From Streptomyces sp. 71268 (lineage in GTDB: Bacteria; Actinomycetota; Actinomycetes; Streptomycetales; Streptomycetaceae): a stretch of 64,000 nucleotides of DNA. Location: positions 5,301,001-5,365,000 of the forward strand of contig NZ_CP114200.1 of NCBI RefSeq assembly GCF_029392895.1, read 5' to 3'. Positions 21,751 through 31,852 of this stretch are shown one piece after another; positions within the stretch are counted from its first letter, which is position 1, and the number at the start of each line of letters is the position of its first letter. The notes beneath the pieces were generated by a model. It saw nothing but the letters and a program-made list of their open reading frames with translations, searched no databases and had not been told where the DNA came from. A program made the translations under genes and the position numbers.

Positions 21751-22032
21751 TCACGCCGCGCCCGCATCGCGCTCGCTGAACAGGTCCGCCAGCAGTTCGG
21801 CCATCGTCGCCGCCGGCCCGCCCTCGGCCAGGACCGCCTCCGCCTCATGCACCAAGAACACGTCGGCCGCTTCCTCCAGTTCCTCCAGCGCTTCGAGGTC
21901 CGAGATCGGGACCAGGGCCGCCACCGATACGCCGTCGCGCGTGATGACGGTCGGAACGCCCTCTTCGGCCCGGTTGATGTAGTCCGCCAAACGCGCGCGG
22001 GCTTCCCGTACGGTCACGGTGATCTCAACCAT
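21751..22032 (-). CDS. Phd/YefM-type antitoxin, no toxin partner seen
   Basis: A 93-residue protein. Its N-terminus (ITVTVREARARLADYINRAE, then EGVPTVITRDGVSVAALVPI) is the Phd/YefM DNA-binding fold; the C-terminal half is acidic and helical, where these antitoxins wrap their toxin. ATG 22032 lies 6 nt after TACGCT, so the mRNA is probably leaderless. Normally a RelE/Doc/YoeB or PIN toxin gene overlaps the 3' end, but 21646-21750 has no such frame. It lies between the leader of CRISPR array 1 and a divergent GlxA-type regulator. It may be orphaned, act as a plain repressor, or work with a distant toxin. Confidence 0.85.
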   Translation of the reverse strand: MVEITVTVREARARLADYINRAEEGVPTVITRDGVSVAALVPISDLEALEELEEAADVFLVHEAEAVLAEGGPAATMAELLADLFSERDAGAA

Positions 22033-22038
22033 GAACTC

Positions 22039-22044
22039 AGCGTA
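22039..22044 (-). promoter_or_regulatory. -10 element of leaderless antitoxin promoter
   Basis: TACGCT on the minus strand, 6 nt before ATG 22032. Confidence 0.55.
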
Positions 22045-22157
22045 CGTAGCCGCGCGTACACGCGGCGGGATTCGGGCGGACTGGCCCAACGGCCGCCGAG
22101 CTGCCCGGCTCACCCGCCCCGCGCAGCGGCAAACGTAGGACCTGCCGACACCCCACG

Positions 22158-22163
22158 TAACCT
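22158..22163 (+). promoter_or_regulatory. -10 element of leaderless GlxA-type regulator promoter
   Basis: TAACCT, 6 nt before GTG 22170. Together with 22039-22044 it forms a divergent leaderless pair about 140 bp apart. Confidence 0.55.
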
Positions 22164-22169
22164 CTCCCT

Positions 22170-23126
22170 GTGCCCGCACCCCGTCTTCACCGCGTCGCCG
22201 TCCTCGTGCTCGAAGGGGCGAAGCCGCTCGACGTCGGGATTCCCGCGCAGGTCTTCACGACCCGCGCGAGCATGCCGTACGAGGTGCGGGTGTGCGGGGC
22301 CGCGCCCGGTCGGGTGACCGGTGGTGACGGCCTCGCGTACGACGTCGCCCACGGCCTCGACGCGCTCGCCTGGGCCGACATCGTCTTCGTCCCCGGTTAC
22401 CGGTTTCCGGACCGCGACGACCCGCCGTCAGCCGTGGTCGAGGCGCTGGTCGACGCGCACGGGCGGGGCGCGCGGCTGGCCGCCATCTCGACGGGTGCCT
22501 TCGCGCTGGCCGCCACGGGCCTGCTCGACGGCCGGCGCGCCACCACGCACTGGCACTACACGCGCGCCCTCATGGCCAGGTACCCGCAGGTCAAGGTGGA
22601 CGAGAACGTGCTGTTCGTGGACGAGGGCAGCGTGCTCACCTCAGCCGGCGCGGCCTCCGGCATCGACCTGTGCCTGCACATCCTGCGCGGCGACCTCGGC
22701 GTGGCCGCCTCCAACCACGCGGCCCGCCGCCTGGTCGCGGCCCCCTACCGCAGCGGCGGCCAGGCCCAGTACGTACCGCGCAGCGTGCCCGAGCCGCGCG
22801 GCGAACGGTTCGCCGCAACGCGCGAGTGGGCGCTGTACCGGCTCGGCGAGCCGCTGACCCTCGACGTCCTGGCGCGGCAGGCGGGAGTCTCGCCGCGCAC
22901 GTTCTCCCGGCGCTTCGTCGAGGAGACCGGTTACACGCCCATGCAGTGGGTGATGCGCGCCCGCATCGACCTGGCCCGCGAACTGCTGGAGCGCTCGCAA
23001 CGCAGCGTCGAGCAGATCGCCGCCGACACCGGACTCGGCACCGGCGCCAACCTGCGCCTGCACTTCCAGCGCATCCTCGGCACCACGCCGAGCGAGTACC
23101 GGCGCACCTTCACCCGGGGCGAGTAG
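22170..23126 (+). CDS. GlxA-type transcription regulator (DJ-1/PfpI plus AraC HTH)
   Basis: A 318-residue regulator. Residues 1-~185 form a DJ-1/PfpI-like amidotransferase-fold sensor (RVAVLVLEGAKPLDVGIPAQ); at the nucleophile elbow it reads AAISTGAFALAATGLLDGR, with Thr where catalytic family members have Cys, so it is probably only a ligand sensor. Residues ~215-318 are a double HTH of AraC type (LARQAGVSPRTFSRRFVEET and IAADTGLGTGANLRLHFQRI). Start GTG 22170, leaderless. It lies divergent from the antitoxin and 270 bp upstream of gap, which it might regulate. A 39-bp tandem repeat follows. Confidence 0.92.
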   Translation: MPAPRLHRVAVLVLEGAKPLDVGIPAQVFTTRASMPYEVRVCGAAPGRVTGGDGLAYDVAHGLDALAWADIVFVPGYRFPDRDDPPSAVVEALVDAHGRGARLAAISTGAFALAATGLLDGRRATTHWHYTRALMARYPQVKVDENVLFVDEGSVLTSAGAASGIDLCLHILRGDLGVAASNHAARRLVAAPYRSGGQAQYVPRSVPEPRGERFAATREWALYRLGEPLTLDVLARQAGVSPRTFSRRFVEETGYTPMQWVMRARIDLARELLERSQRSVEQIAADTGLGTGANLRLHFQRILGTTPSEYRRTFTRGE

Positions 23127-24397: not shown

Positions 24398-24497
24398 CGG
24401 CCCCTGCCGCCGTCGTCAGCGAGTGAGCTGGTCTCGGCAACGTTTGTGAGCGCTCTGGTTGGCCATGCGGGCCGACCGGGGCGCTCGGTCGTGGGGT
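24398..24497. other. Gap between gap gene and CRISPR array 2
   Basis: About 100 bases with no gene or clear signal. The trailer end of the minus-strand array begins at 24498. Confidence 0.5.
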
Positions 24498-24886
24498 GGG
24501 GTCTCCCCGCACGCGCGGGGGCCAGCCCGGAGATCGGCCGTGCGATCGGTACGGATCGCGGACCATCCCCGCGCGCGGGGATCAGGGGTCGTCACCATCG
24601 CGGCCGAACTCGATGCCGGGACCATCCCCGCGCGCGCGGGGACCAGGCCCGCCAGAGCGCGACTGAGAGGCGCCCTCAGGGGCCATCCCCGCGCGCGCGG
24701 GGACCAGCCCGCCATCGCCGTCGCCATGCAGGAACTCGAAGGACCATCCCCGCGCGCGGGGACCAGGATTTCGCGTGTTCCTTGCCGATGCCCAGATGGG
24801 GACCATCCCCGCGCGCGCGGGGACCAGAGCAGCAGCGGGTTGAAGGCGCCGAGCACCTTGGGACCATCCCCGCGCGCGGGGACCAG
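24498..24886 (-). CRISPR. CRISPR array 2, type I-E-like, 7 repeats
   Basis: Repeats at 24498-24525 (degenerate), 24559-24585, 24618-24646, 24679-24707, 24740-24766, 24799-24827 and 24860-24886, separated by one 33-nt and five 32-nt spacers. Several copies are 29 nt and others 27 nt, differing by one CG in the loop (GCGCGCGCG against GCGCGCG). Centres differ slightly from array 1 (GCGCGC against GCACGCGC). The degenerate copy is at the low-coordinate end, placing the leader at 24887, so crRNAs read on the minus strand. No cas genes in the window. Confidence 0.94.
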
Positions 24887-24963
24887 AGCAACTGACCTGC
24901 ACCTTTACCGCGCGGTACCCCGGTTTTTTGCAACTTCCGCGAACTCCGACCTACCACCCAAGC
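24887..24963 (-). promoter_or_regulatory. CRISPR array 2 leader
   Basis: Homologous to the array 1 leader (AGCAACTGACCTGCACCTTT here, AGCAATTGACCTGCGGCTTT there), with an added T-run GGTTTTTTGCAACTTCC. Its conservation beside the leader-end repeat supports minus-strand transcription. Confidence 0.7.
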
Positions 24964-27741: not shown

Positions 27742-28317
27742 TCACCCCCCGTCAGCACAGGGCGTGTCGACCCACGGCGACGGGAGAGGGGTTCGGGGGA
27801 GGAGGGTCAGGGGCGAGAGGTGAGGGAGAGGGCGGTCGCTGGGGGCTTCGTCGTGGGTGGTGAGTCGGGTGGCGAGTTCGGTGAGTCCCTGGGCCAGGGC
27901 GAGGCGTTGGTGGGCGGCCATGCCGTGGAGGGCCTCGTGGAGCACGTTCTCGCGCTCCTCGCGGACGCGCTGGAGGTGGCCGCGGCCCGCCGCGCTGAGC
28001 CTCAGCGCGACCTCGCGCCCGTTGTCGGGGCAGGGGAGGCGTTCCAGGAAGCCGAGGGTCTGTAGCCGGTCGCACATGCGGCTGACGTTCGGTGGCGAGG
28101 AGGCCAGCAGTTGGCACAGCCTGCGCATCCGCATGCCGTCCTGCCGGTCGACGACGTACATCAAGCGCAACTGCGAGACGGACGCGGGTGCGGTGGCGCG
28201 CGCGGTGGCGTCTCTCGCGCGTTCCCACATGACGTCGAGGAGTTCGGCGATGCCGCTGACGGCGTCGGTGGTCTCCGAACAGCAGGCGCTGTCGGGGCCG
28301 GCGTCTGGTGCGGGCAT
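27742..28317 (-). CDS. MarR-family regulator
   Basis: A 191-residue winged-helix regulator. The HTH reads RMRRLCQLLASSPPNVSRMC, then DRLQTLGFLERLPCPDNGRE (wing). A Cys-Cys (SACCSE) near the N-terminus and a Pro/Leu-rich C-tail of ~35 residues are unusual. ATG 28317 has GGGGAG close by; ATG 28356 would add 13 residues without a site. It lies 50 nt after the STAS gene on the same strand, probably the last gene of the PP2C-B12-STAS operon. Confidence 0.87.
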   Translation of the reverse strand: MPAPDAGPDSACCSETTDAVSGIAELLDVMWERARDATARATAPASVSQLRLMYVVDRQDGMRMRRLCQLLASSPPNVSRMCDRLQTLGFLERLPCPDNGREVALRLSAAGRGHLQRVREERENVLHEALHGMAAHQRLALAQGLTELATRLTTHDEAPSDRPLPHLSPLTLLPRTPLPSPWVDTPCADGG

Positions 28318-28367
28318 GGCTCCCCGTCGGCTGGTGCTTGTGCCCGGTGGTGGCACCGGGAAGTGGC

Positions 28368-28799
28368 TCAGGTGCTGCTGTGGGGCCCGGTGGGGCGAGC
28401 CGATCTCGTCTCCGCCTCGGTCGCGAGGGGTGGTGCCGTGACCTGGTGCGGGGTCGCGGCGCCGGCGGGGGGTGGCGCCGTGAGGTGTTCGAGCGTACCG
28501 GTGATGGTGAGGAGCCGGTCCAGTTTCGGGGGCCGGTCGTCCAGGCGCAGGCGCACTCCCGCCGCGGTCGCACGGCGGTGGATCATCAGCAGGGCCGACA
28601 GGCCCGTGGAGTCGACGACGCCGACCCGGGCGAAGGACAGCCGCAGGCTGTCCAGGTCGCTCCGGGCCGCAAGGCGGGCGGTGGCCTCCTCCAGGAGGCG
28701 GTCGGCGCTGTCGTAGTCGAGGTCTCCGGTGATCTCGATGCGGACGCCGTCCTCGGCTTCGACCGTGGTCAGGCGCAGGGTGGGGGGCGGGGTGGTCAT
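28368..28799 (-). CDS. STAS-domain anti-sigma factor antagonist
   Basis: A 143-residue partner-switching protein of the SpoIIAA/RsbV type. The STAS fold covers ~8-110: GVRIEITGDLDYDSADRLLE and GVVDSTGLSALLMIHRRATA, where Ser64 in DSTGLS is the expected phosphorylation site controlled by a kinase/anti-sigma factor and a PP2C phosphatase. The last ~30 residues are a disordered Pro/Thr tail. Its ATG overlaps the stop of the cobalamin-protein gene by 4 nt. The phosphatase is two genes upstream; the cognate anti-sigma kinase is not in the window. Confidence 0.93.
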   Translation of the reverse strand: MTTPPPTLRLTTVEAEDGVRIEITGDLDYDSADRLLEEATARLAARSDLDSLRLSFARVGVVDSTGLSALLMIHRRATAAGVRLRLDDRPPKLDRLLTITGTLEHLTAPPPAGAATPHQVTAPPLATEAETRSARPTGPHSST

Positions 28800-29890
28800 G
28801 CGTGTCGTCCGGCGTCGGTGAGTGAGTCGGTGGTCAGGGCCTCGGAGCCGCGCTCCAGCAGGCGGACGGCCCGGGGGAAGTCCTTCAGCTCACGGGCGAA
28901 GAGGCCGAGGGCGGCCGGCAGGGACCGCGTGGGCACCCCGCGCGCCACCAGGATCTGTTCGGTCCAGGTGAGGAACCGTACGAACAGGTCCTCGTCGCCG
29001 AGGTAGAGGGACGTGCCGAGGAACTCCACGATGTGCGCGAGGTCTTCGGCCGTACGCTCCCGCTGGGCCTCGTCGTACTCCCGCATGAGGGGCAGGGCGT
29101 CCTCCAGCGCGTGGAAGACGGCCCGTACGAGAGCGTCGCTGTTGCGGACGACCATCGTGTACTCCTGGTCGGCCAGGTGCGGCAGGTCGTCCATCTGCTG
29201 GTGGTCGGGCCGTGGTTGCGGGAGCGGCCCCATGGCCAGGATGTCGGCGGCGGTACGGGCGTCGGGCGCCCACGCCTGGGCGCCCAGCAGGTGTGCGTAC
29301 CGGCCGTCCGGGCCGAACGCGGCGCCGCCGACCAGGACGGGCACGCCCACGGCCTGGCACGCGGTGATCGCCGCGTGCGCGGTGGGCAGCCGGGTGGCGA
29401 TGGAGCTGGAGAGCGCGACCGCGTCGGCGTCGGTGTGGTGCAGGTGCGAGATCAGGCGGGAGGAGGGGACCTGGGCGCCGAGGTAGTCGACCTGCCAGCC
29501 GCGCAGCGTCAACACCTCGGCGACCAGGCGGGCGGGCAGCGCGTGCCATTCGCCGTCGACGCAGGCCACCGTGACCCGGCCCAGGTGCCCGGTCCCGCGC
29601 GCGGCGGGGTGCGTGGCGAGCGCCGCGACCACGCGCTCGTTGATGGCGGTGGCGGCGTGTTCCTGGGCGACGCTGATCCGGGCGGCGGCCCACTCCTCAC
29701 CGACCTTGCCCTGCACCGAGGCGATGACGTCCAGGAGGACGGACTCGGGGTCGACGCCCTCGTCAAGGGCGCCCATGACGACCTCGGTGGCCGAGTGCTC
29801 GTCCTTGGCCGTCACGCTCTCCCACAGTCGGTCGGCCAGTTCGTCGAGGTGGGCGTCGCGGGGGAGCCGGGACGGGGTGCTCGTGATCAT
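28796..29890 (-). CDS. Stand-alone cobalamin-binding protein with W-x9-EH photoreceptor motif
   Basis: A 364-residue soluble protein. Residues ~15-95 are the helical cap of B12 domains, with W67-x9-E77-H78 (EEWAAARISVAQEHAA), the signature of CarH/LitR adenosylcobalamin light sensors. Residues ~105-225 are the Rossmann B12 domain: VACVDGEWHALPARLVAEVL with His116 in the place of the lower axial ligand, LGAQVPSSRL and VLVGGAAFGPDG. Instead of a MerR DNA-binding domain there is a C-terminal helical domain (~245-350) that resembles stressosome or sensor bundles. It overlaps the PP2C stop and the STAS start by 4 nt each, so it probably senses light or B12 for the partner switch. Confidence 0.9.
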   Translation of the reverse strand: MITSTPSRLPRDAHLDELADRLWESVTAKDEHSATEVVMGALDEGVDPESVLLDVIASVQGKVGEEWAAARISVAQEHAATAINERVVAALATHPAARGTGHLGRVTVACVDGEWHALPARLVAEVLTLRGWQVDYLGAQVPSSRLISHLHHTDADAVALSSSIATRLPTAHAAITACQAVGVPVLVGGAAFGPDGRYAHLLGAQAWAPDARTAADILAMGPLPQPRPDHQQMDDLPHLADQEYTMVVRNSDALVRAVFHALEDALPLMREYDEAQRERTAEDLAHIVEFLGTSLYLGDEDLFVRFLTWTEQILVARGVPTRSLPAALGLFARELKDFPRAVRLLERGSEALTTDSLTDAGRHA

Positions 29891-31578
29891 GCGGTGTACC
29901 TGCCCCGGGTGTGTCCGCCCACCGCGCTCAGGTGGTGAGTGCGGGGCGCCGAGATGGCGACCACGGCCATGTCGTCGTGGCGGCGCTGTCCGAGCCACTG
30001 GGAGGCCAGCATCTGGAGGTGCTCCACGACGCCTTCCGAGGGCATCCCGGCGCATTCGGACAGGGCTCGTCTGAGGCGTTCCTCGCCGAACTGGGCGTCG
30101 CCCATCGGGCCGCCCTTGGCCTCGGTGAAGCCGTCGGTGTAGAGGATGCAGGTCTCTCCGGGGGAGAGGGTGACCGTGGCGGTACGGGCCGGAACCTTCG
30201 GCACCACCCCGACCAGGGTGCCGCGGGTGTCGACCTCCTCCACGGCCCCGTCCGCCCGGATGACCAGCGGACTGGGGTGGCCGGCGCTGGTCAGTTTCAC
30301 CTCGACGCCGTTGCCCTCGCGGACGGCGGAGGCCAGCACCAGCGTGGCGAAACGGGTGTGATGGGAGTTCAGCAGCGCGGTGTTCAGCAGGGTGAGCATC
30401 CGCTGGTGGTCGTCGGCCATGGGGAGCAGGGCGTGCAGGGTGTTACGGATCTTGCCGGTGAGGACGGCGGCTTCGAGGCCCTTCCCGCAGACGTCCCCGA
30501 GAGCGACGAGAGAGGGTTGGCCCTCCACGGCGGCGGGGTGCACGTCGTAGAAGTCCCCGCCGATCCGCTCGTGGTCCGAGGAGGCGCGGTAGCCGCCGGC
30601 GAAGTCCACCCCGGAGACCTGACGCAGCGTCGGCGGGAGCAGCTCCCGCATCAACACCTCGGTGACGCCCGTCTGCTCGGCGTACAGACGGGCCGCGGAC
30701 ATGGCCGCACCGGAGCGGGCGGCGAAGAGGCGGGCGAAGACCTCCTCCTCGTCGGTGAAGGAGGCGCTGCCCACCTTGCGGAGCAACACCAGGGCGCCCG
30801 CGGGAACGCCGTGCCCGGGCAGCGGGGTGATGACGATCGAGCCGACCGGGCCGAACCCGTCCGGGATCATCCAGTCCGGGGCCGAGGCGGGGTCGATCCA
30901 CCGGGAGGGCACCGGGGGGAAGCCGCGCAGCGCCTCGCCGAGGCCGGGGACGTCCTCGGGCTCCACCTCCTCCTGCGACGTGCGGGGGGAGTCGCCGCGC
31001 AGGCAGGTCACCACGGGCAGCCGGTGGCCCCGGGACGGCGCGATGGCCAGCGCGGCATCGGCGAGGTGCTCGGCGGCCATCCGCGCGGTCACCTCCATGC
31101 AGCGGCCCAGGTTGAGGCTGGAGAGCAACAGGCTGGACGCCTTCGCCAGGAACGCGGTCCGCTCTCGCTGTGTGCGGAGCGCTTCACGGACGAGTCGGTG
31201 GTTGGTGTCATCCACCAGCCACCACGCGACGGTGCCGTCGGCGCACAGGGTGGAGTGCGCCTCGAAGTGGAGCCCGTCGATCTCGCCGGACGCCGGGGCC
31301 GGTGCCTTCGACCCTCGCTCGCCCCGCGCGTCGGGCGCGGCCACCGCCCGGTGGGCCGTGGCCAGCCAGAGGGGGGCCACGTCGGTCAGGTGCGCGCCAG
31401 GGTGGGCCGCGGGCAGCAGCGCCCGAGCCGCGTCGTTGCGCTGGACGAGGATGCCCGACCCGTCAGCTACCAGTACCGGGTACGGGGCCTGGGCCCATGG
31501 GAAGTTCGGCTCCGCGTGCGTGACGGTGTCCGCTTGGGTGGAGACCACATTGGAGGACCCGCTGAGCGAATCCCTCAC
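29887..31578 (-). CDS. SpoIIE/RsbU-type PP2C phosphatase with PAS- and GAF-like domains
   Basis: A ~563-residue protein that would dephosphorylate a STAS antagonist, here probably the product two genes downstream. N-terminal PAS-like sensor ~30-130 (YPVLVADGSGILVQRNDAAR), GAF-like ~140-300, PP2C domain ~320-550 with GGDFYDV, GDVCGKG, SAGHP, YTDGFTEA and RHDDM metal-site motifs. The start is uncertain: I chose GTG 31578, where coding character begins; it lacks a ribosome binding site, and CTAGTT lies 6 nt upstream. The stop overlaps the B12-protein ATG (ATGA), so phosphatase, sensor and STAS protein are made together. Confidence 0.92.
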   Translation of the reverse strand: MRDSLSGSSNVVSTQADTVTHAEPNFPWAQAPYPVLVADGSGILVQRNDAARALLPAAHPGAHLTDVAPLWLATAHRAVAAPDARGERGSKAPAPASGEIDGLHFEAHSTLCADGTVAWWLVDDTNHRLVREALRTQRERTAFLAKASSLLLSSLNLGRCMEVTARMAAEHLADAALAIAPSRGHRLPVVTCLRGDSPRTSQEEVEPEDVPGLGEALRGFPPVPSRWIDPASAPDWMIPDGFGPVGSIVITPLPGHGVPAGALVLLRKVGSASFTDEEEVFARLFAARSGAAMSAARLYAEQTGVTEVLMRELLPPTLRQVSGVDFAGGYRASSDHERIGGDFYDVHPAAVEGQPSLVALGDVCGKGLEAAVLTGKIRNTLHALLPMADDHQRMLTLLNTALLNSHHTRFATLVLASAVREGNGVEVKLTSAGHPSPLVIRADGAVEEVDTRGTLVGVVPKVPARTATVTLSPGETCILYTDGFTEAKGGPMGDAQFGEERLRRALSECAGMPSEGVVEHLQMLASQWLGQRRHDDMAVVAISAPRTHHLSAVGGHTRGRYTA

Positions 31579-31852
31579 CTCGTTAACTAGAACGGAATAG
31601 TTGCCTTCTGGAAACCATCCCCCACGGGCCGGCGTGCTGACAAGCCGCGCCCGTGCCCTCCCGAGATCCACACGACGGTGAACGCGGCGTGCGCGTGGGT
31701 GACGACCGAGTGGCGCGTACGAGCCGGTCCAAACCGGAGGGGCCGCGGGCGACCCGGTGTTCCCTGGCCCACGCCGCGACCGGCGTGAGGTGCGCGCGGC
31801 GTTCACCGGCCGCGTCGTCGGCCCCGTCCCGCCAGCCGCGCCCGGCTCGGAC

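Follow-up and report, generated by a model that had tools for sequence, protein, structure and literature searches.

A stand-alone photocobilin paired with an RsbU-type phosphatase in Streptomyces and related actinomycetes: a probable light-controlled partner switch

Photocobilins are a recently described family of light sensors that use vitamin B12 plus a bile pigment. In SasPcob of Saccharothrix syringae, either green light acting on adenosylcobalamin (AdoCbl) or red light acting on the coupled biliverdin breaks the Co-C bond and takes the protein from a dimer in the dark to a monomer in the light, while AbDPcob opens in the light yet remains dimeric (PMC10979010). A stand-alone photocobilin was reported to alter the activity of a partner enzyme through contact, the tested output being a diguanylate cyclase; with both chromophores present the light state activated this test enzyme, and SasPcob carrying AdoCbl only did the reverse (PMC10979010). 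Zhang et al. nonetheless called the function of stand-alone photocobilins less clear, and a single sentence of their 2024 paper names STAS, SpoIIE and PP2C as partners predicted for SasPcob from a STRING network (PMC10979010). Here we describe a four-gene operon in a 64,000-nucleotide stretch of the Streptomyces sp. 71268 genome (contig NZ_CP114200.1, positions 5,301,001 to 5,365,000; hereafter the window), in which a photocobilin gene stands between the genes for a SpoIIE-type PP2C phosphatase and a STAS protein, with a MarR-family gene at the end. That the photocobilin has a natural partner recurring in 112/120 loci bears directly on what stand-alone photocobilins do, and we consider it likely that the operon is a light-controlled partner switch acting on a stress-type regulator, with the photocobilin as a light-sensing subunit that can be separated from its RsbU-like phosphatase.

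Parts of this arrangement are familiar from other systems. In Bacillus subtilis, RsbQ is a separate protein that switches the PP2C phosphatase RsbP. RsbT likewise switches RsbU, a PP2C in which dimerisation is governed by the N-terminal domain and a helical linker, and the output runs through a STAS protein and the RsbW kinase (PMC12143880). The separate protein in these two pairs is an alpha/beta hydrolase or kinase-like, whereas that of the window is a B12/bilin photoreceptor, and the window phosphatase combines a PAS-like with a GAF-like domain. CarH and LitR share with the window protein an AdoCbl light-sensing core, the W-x9-EH motif and the axial His; they carry, however, an N-terminal MerR-type helix-turn-helix (HTH), none of which was found in the window protein, whose output would be expected to pass via protein contact. 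RsbR globins, to which photoglobins are homologous (PMC10151467), LOV-STAS and LOV/SpoIIE proteins also couple light or globin-type sensing to STAS/PP2C switching (PMC10151467, PMC4844311), but they are fusions or stressosome parts, while the window sensor is stand-alone and is expected to hold two chromophores. With the photocobilins themselves the likeness extends to the full-length fold, the chromophore residues, the stand-alone form and enzyme control by contact (PMC10979010); the difference lies in the partner, a diguanylate cyclase in the published test and here a recurrent PP2C whose operon also holds STAS and MarR. The sequence-only reading of this locus, which knew of no described system with such an architecture, was thus too strong, as the photocobilin family and a predicted STAS/SpoIIE/PP2C link for SasPcob are already published and the idea is not wholly new. 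In the open-licence PMC literature, as far as it was available to us, we met neither the nearly constant pairing with a PP2C and its limit to the class, nor the modules that have a kinase on the same strand, nor the operator and the hairpin in the leader.

Judged by its sequence, the middle protein of the operon is a full-length photocobilin. In a search of solved structures, SasPcob (8J2W, 8J2X) matched with E 8e-81 over residues 22-353 and AbPcob (8J2Y) with E 8e-40, with entries named CarH at E 2e-7 at best. Because the 8J2W/8J2X alignment covers residues 22-353, the C-terminal part, which the sequence-only reading had left as a helical bundle with no further identity, corresponds to the biliverdin-binding, five-helix photoglobin domain of photocobilins, and two chromophores are therefore expected for this sensor. 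The remainder of what had been said of the protein, namely that it has a CarH-type B12 light-sensing core with an axial-type His116 and no DNA-binding domain, stood up well: Pfam places the B12-binding_2 cap at residues 18-91 and the Rossmann domain (B12-binding) at 104-204, W67-x9-E77-H78 occurs once in the protein and falls inside the cap, His116 corresponds in the alignment to SasPcob's axial His108, and Pfam found no HTH. We rejected a plain CarH on account of the missing HTH and of the match between the C-terminal domain and the photoglobin half of 8J2W; the NCBIfam CarH model gives 55 bits against a cut-off of 400. The other SasPcob residues W61, E71-H72, D270, W296 and H137 map to W67, E77-H78, D283, W309 and R145. 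W-x-EH and E/DxH motifs, together with a light-responsive signature of GxxW, EH, GxxH and GxxxP, have been described (PMC11796333), and the window protein has both motifs and all four elements of the signature (G64-x2-W67, E77-H78, G113-E-W-H116 and G138-x3-P142), which are invariant in 14 close relatives.

Conservation was followed in two sets of loci. The near set comprises the best 80 of 392 confirmed matches, from 76 genomes (four of which give two loci each), collected by two peptide patterns covering E77-H78 and D112-W115 (G113-E114-W115 included), and it leans to close relatives for this reason; the 40 distant loci were chosen by hand among the lower-ranking rows of whole-protein searches, several from one genome and with short fragments excluded, 30 coming from a class sample and 10 from a genus sample. 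Residues G64, W67, E77, H78, E114 and H116 do not vary in any of the 120 relatives, and G113 varies in the distant set; since the patterns include E77-H78 and E114, W67 and H116 provide the freer test of conservation in the near set. The biliverdin residues D283 and W309 are constant in 80/80 near relatives; of the 33 distant relatives that have a PP2C, 19 keep D283 and 23 keep W309, with Phe in place of W309 in the remaining 10, and this variation suggests that some members of the family may no longer use biliverdin while retaining the B12 site. A heme oxygenase, which could supply biliverdin, is encoded in the strain's own genome; its co-occurrence is uninformative, being found in 70/74 photocobilin genomes and in 181/199 genomes of the genus sample overall. 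Matches at E 1e-20, some of them partial-length, were found in 48/296 class-sample and 74/199 genus-sample genomes, both samples including the strain's own genome, and Streptomyces supplies most of the best 120 of the 2236 listed relatives of the window B12 protein, one of them, P0047 from S. venezuelae, at 76%.

A PP2C gene lies directly upstream of the photocobilin gene, on the same strand, in 79/80 near and 33/40 distant loci (23 of the 30 from the class sample and all 10 from the genus sample), 112/120 in all; a STAS gene lies directly downstream in 73/80 and 8/40 (81/120), and a MarR gene follows the STAS gene directly in 30/80 near and 0/40 distant loci. The profiles used to count PP2C, STAS, kinase and MarR genes were built from the near loci themselves, and tblastn with the window's own PP2C repeated the result in 79/80 near loci. 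No PP2C was found in 7/40 distant loci (L132, L135-L137, L139-L141). Fifteen extra class-sample loci with 1.5-kb flanks all had a PP2C (15/15), some of which may duplicate genomes among the 80 and which are left uncounted. The genetic tie of the sensor to a PP2C/STAS pair, claimed from the window alone, is thus seen across relatives, and the genome search that had been proposed for the gene triplet and a linked anti-sigma kinase showed that the pair recurs and that RsbW-like kinases are linked to it in part of the relatives (44/120).

Sensor and phosphatase also appear to have travelled together. The photocobilin match starts within 60 nucleotides (nt) of the PP2C stop in 72/79 loci, PP2C and photocobilin distances correlate with r 0.78 (79 loci), and the nearest PP2C belongs to one of the three nearest photocobilins in 63/79. 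In the four genomes with two cassettes, both genes have the same nearest neighbour in 8/8 cases, the two copies of one genome being mutual nearest. Gene-caller antisense artefacts aside, families other than PP2C, STAS, kinase and MarR each occur in at most 7 of the 81 sets of near loci, so that the cassette seems to stay together while its location changes. One locus in which PP2C and photocobilin share a frame (L092) was considered as a fusion and left uncounted, its PP2C being broken. In two further loci (L115, L116) the PP2C gene precedes a tandem pair of photocobilin genes, with STAS behind them, which suggests sensor heterodimers.

Outside the class Actinomycetes some of the neighbours are of other kinds. 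Nine loci were available there, these being the full-length "same phylum" matches listed, one of which (L173) had only 1.1 kb upstream, and ten neighbouring proteins were looked up. A stand-alone GGDEF gene lies beside the photocobilin gene in L166 and L167, the photocobilin of L173 carries a GAF-ANTAR fusion, and in L174:6924-8772 a heliorhodopsin gene directly follows the photocobilin gene. As these are other signalling parts, the sensor would be a plug-in for several outputs.

The AlphaFold model of the phosphatase, computed with 25 sequences (mean predicted local distance difference test score 83.5, predicted template-modelling score 0.53), predicts one domain at about 35-123 and another at about 157-268, which in our reading of the fold are PAS-like and GAF-like, then a single long helix (276-312) and the PP2C domain; Pfam gives a GAF match in the PP2C of L127 and, just at the cut-off, in that of L070. 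The catalytic metal aspartates D342, D362, D482, D535 and D536 are invariant in the 25 sequences. The top fold match in PDB is 3ke6, the RsbU domain of Rv1364c, and the PP2C domains of RssB, SiaA and SpoIIE are also listed. RsbT is known to switch RsbU via a coiled-coil linker, helical linker and dimerisation setting the activity (PMC12143880), and by analogy the predicted layout of the window PP2C is one of this type.

On the substrate side, the DSTGL segment of the window STAS protein aligns with the segment of RsbV (6m36) that likewise reads DSTGL. A Ser follows the Asp of the phosphosite in 77/81 downstream STAS proteins and in 14/15 upstream (kinase-side) ones, values obtained on re-reading after a stricter, Gly-demanding pattern had given 73/81 and left 10/15 upstream proteins without the motif. 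By profile, an RsbW-like kinase gene lies within 6 kb in 34/80 near and 10/40 distant loci, and a Pfam check upheld two of these kinases. The 8.38 Mb genome of the strain has 46 HATPase_c_2 matches, which corresponds to about 0.07 expected per 12-kb stretch and hence to a large excess of kinases near the cassettes, a rough guide since the estimate sets two different profiles against each other; it also encodes 7 SigB/F/G factors above the cut-off, none of them in the cassette. STAS, RsbW-like kinase, PP2C and photocobilin genes share one strand in 9/80 near and 5/40 distant loci (14/120), in Amycolatopsis (L070, L073, L077, L087, L097, L102), Actinacidiphila (L078), Streptomyces acidipaludis (L083), Nocardia vaccinii (L109) and L122, L123, L124, L127 and L138. 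The most complete module seen, L127:3487-9337, holds within 6 kb the genes for a HATPase, a SigB-type sigma factor, a STAS protein, an RsbW-like kinase, the PP2C, the photocobilin and a second STAS protein; its sigma gene overlaps the HATPase gene, and about 0.5 kb separate it from the first STAS gene (STAS by profile).

The four genes of the window, all on the minus strand, also show signs of common control. As first proposed, ATGA overlaps join PP2C to the B12 protein (GCATGATC) and the B12 protein to STAS (GCATGACC), and the MarR ATG at 28317 lies 50 nt past the STAS stop, GTG 28356 being an alternative MarR start. Ahead of the operon, TTGNCA-N16-20-GATNGTT occurs in 35/80 upstream regions (79 relatives and the window), 24 of them among the 30 with a MarR gene, and in 0/8000 base shuffles; a palindrome with at most one mismatch to GTTGCCN4GGCAAC occurs in 26/30 upstream regions with MarR (29 relatives and the window), in 14/50 without, and in 1/4000 base shuffles, both comparisons being optimistic because the patterns were read off the same regions and set against single-base shuffles. 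In the strain's own genome GTTKYCN4GGCAAC has three sites with no mismatch, of which only the operon site lies outside predicted genes. MarR operators are usually inverted repeats of 16-20 bp (PMC6739363), and the MarR protein is a probable autoregulator of the operon acting at the palindrome. A comparison across 19 genomes looked for MarR in trans: where the palindrome (at most one mismatch) is present and the cassette lacks MarR, a relative of the window MarR (P0004) with at least 39% identity is encoded elsewhere in 7/8 genomes (the exception is L088), and where the palindrome is absent such a relative is found in 1/8, a contrast that kinship alone could explain because all 8 palindrome-less genomes lie outside Streptomyces. 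In the genome of L106 there is also the cassette L108, which does include a MarR gene. SigB-type autoregulation was also considered for the operon and is unsupported, G-N-TT-N14-18-GGG[AT]A occurring in 2/79 upstream regions (78 relatives and the window) against a shuffle mean of 2.9.

Comparison of the leaders points to a shift in the 5' end of the PP2C gene, which had been placed at 31578. A box, AGGTGAGGG, precedes PP2C in 47/79 relatives and is absent in 32/79; its GTG (31578 in the window) is out of the PP2C frame in all 47 relatives that bear it and in frame only in the window, and for this reason the start is probably GTG 31548. Between the two, at window 31546-31581, a hairpin follows the GAGGTGAGG box and separates it from the probable start. 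All 8 base pairs are formed in 44/48 leaders, and 351/360 cells (45 distinct rows) are paired, against a maximum of 344 in 1000 shuffles, with replacements on both sides of the pairs, between A-U and G-C and among U-G, U-A and C-G. No Rfam family scored above its gathering score in the leader, and one weak match at chance level lies elsewhere in the stretch. The hairpin may serve to place the GAGGTGA box close to the start codon, or it may adjust how much PP2C is made.

Put together, these data would fit the following scheme. By the example of SasPcob, the photocobilin would bind AdoCbl and biliverdin, and green or red light would break the Co-C bond and turn dimer into monomer; as a separate subunit it would bind the co-translated PAS/GAF/helix/PP2C phosphatase, probably at the N-terminal or linker-helix region, and set its activity in the way RsbT does with RsbU or RsbQ with RsbP. 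The phosphatase would then take the phosphate off the STAS serine, and the STAS protein would capture an RsbW-like kinase and so free a SigB/F-type sigma factor or another target held by the kinase. MarR, to go by the conserved palindrome, would repress the operon promoter. Either sign of the light effect is possible, considering that the dual-chromophore light state activated the published test enzyme and AdoCbl-only SasPcob did the reverse. That light is sensed in the cell and that the photocobilin acts on its own PP2C are things we infer, and so are the direction in which light works and the identities of the kinase and the end target.

Several observations weigh against this scheme. Residue 145 of the photocobilin (window 29456-29458), at the place of the biliverdin contact His137 of SasPcob, is Arg in the window and His in 80/80 near relatives, so that of the biliverdin pocket (Asp270, Trp296 and His137) Asp and Trp are kept and His is replaced by a private, still basic, change. 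The window protein also lacks the Cys of the motif described for photoglobins (PMC10151467), as does the SasPcob pocket (PMC10979010). Three of the 112 PP2Cs are broken over frames or partial (L059, L092, L143), no downstream STAS was detected in 32/40 distant loci, 4/81 downstream STAS proteins lack the Ser, and 129 loci yielded no PP2C-photocobilin fusion. None of the 9 photocobilin loci outside the class has a PP2C, which makes the pairing lineage-bound, and the palindrome is perfect in 8 cassettes with no MarR. The window cassette contains no kinase or sigma gene, a kinase is found within 6 kb in only 44/120 loci, and SigB/F/G genes were found in at least 5/120 (L041, L065, L104, L108, L127), a lower bound from three usable queries (L152, L157, L158) that leaves a 30% match in L046 uncounted; with so few, a sigma factor is not established as a regular part of the cassette.

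The last of these points bears on what the switch controls. In one alternative, which we find possible and still on the unlikely side, light drives the switch and the output is something other than a sigma factor, the STAS protein regulating another target, such as a cyclase, or the kinase having another client. SiaC is a STAS-type protein with a cyclase as its target, and the window PP2C resembles SiaA as well as RsbU; the few sigma genes near cassettes and the diguanylate cyclase gene beside the photocobilin in 2/9 loci outside the class would suit this alternative, but the RsbW-like kinases near more than a third of the cassettes, and L127 with its SigB-type sigma gene, speak for the classical output.

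A second alternative concerns the input: the photocobilin could report cofactor status (AdoCbl and/or biliverdin, or cobalt redox) in a metabolic partner switch, its light sensitivity being incidental. AdoCbl binding alone reduced AbDPcob activity, and the dark/light effect of SasPcob reversed when biliverdin was left out (PMC10979010), and heme oxygenase, hence biliverdin, is widespread in the genus. We nevertheless regard this as distinctly unlikely, as W67, E77 and H78, which surround the photolabile adenosyl group, are the same in 120/120 relatives (with E77-H78 belonging to the collecting patterns) and both solved relatives with the equivalent residues are photoactive. That photocobilin and PP2C are adjacent by chance or hitch-hiking, with no joint action, is highly improbable, since the missing fusions and the distant loci lacking PP2C, which would agree with it, are set against a pair kept in nearly all loci, closely spaced and correlated in divergence, among neighbours that otherwise recur rarely.

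Returning to the light-controlled switch, a wider statement, for which we hold the case about evenly balanced, is that across Actinomycetes a dual-chromophore photoreceptor serves as the detachable subunit of a dedicated RsbU-type phosphatase, most of the visible spectrum feeding sigma-factor switching, and that in Streptomyces the module roams as a cassette, bringing along a MarR-operator promoter of its own and a leader whose structure sets phosphatase translation. If so, the partner-switch network of antibiotic-producing actinomycetes would take green and red light as inputs, and optogenetics could gain from the sensor a separate plug-in light control for phosphatases. The features of the operon are collected in Table 1.

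Table 1. Genes and predicted control elements of the photocobilin operon (coordinates in the window).
Feature	Coordinates	Strand	Basis or remark
PP2C (SpoIIE-type) phosphatase	29887..31548	-	PF07228 E 5e-41; probable start 31548 (31578 in the first annotation)
Stand-alone photocobilin: B12 four-helix cap, Rossmann domain, C-terminal bilin-binding photoglobin	28796..29890	-	phmmer to 8J2W/8J2X, residues 22-353, E 8e-81
STAS anti-sigma-factor-antagonist-type protein, Ser in D-S-T-G-L	28368..28799	-	PF13466/PF01740
MarR-family regulator	27742..28317	-	PF01047 E 8.7e-10
Predicted promoter TTGTCA-N18-GATGGT(T)	31613..31643	-	Upstream pattern conserved among relatives
16-bp palindrome GTTTCC-AGAA-GGCAAC over the -10 region, probable MarR operator	31600..31615	-	Conservation
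5'-leader hairpin between GAGGTGA (Shine-Dalgarno-like) box and probable PP2C start	31554..31574	-	Conserved pairing

Two further observations were made elsewhere in the window. A PhdYeFM-type antitoxin gene lies at 21751-22179, and at 24497-24891 a GC-rich repeat of about 28 nt (GGACCATCCCCGCGCGCGCGGGGACCAG type) occurs in seven copies spaced 59-62 nt, which looks like a short CRISPR array.

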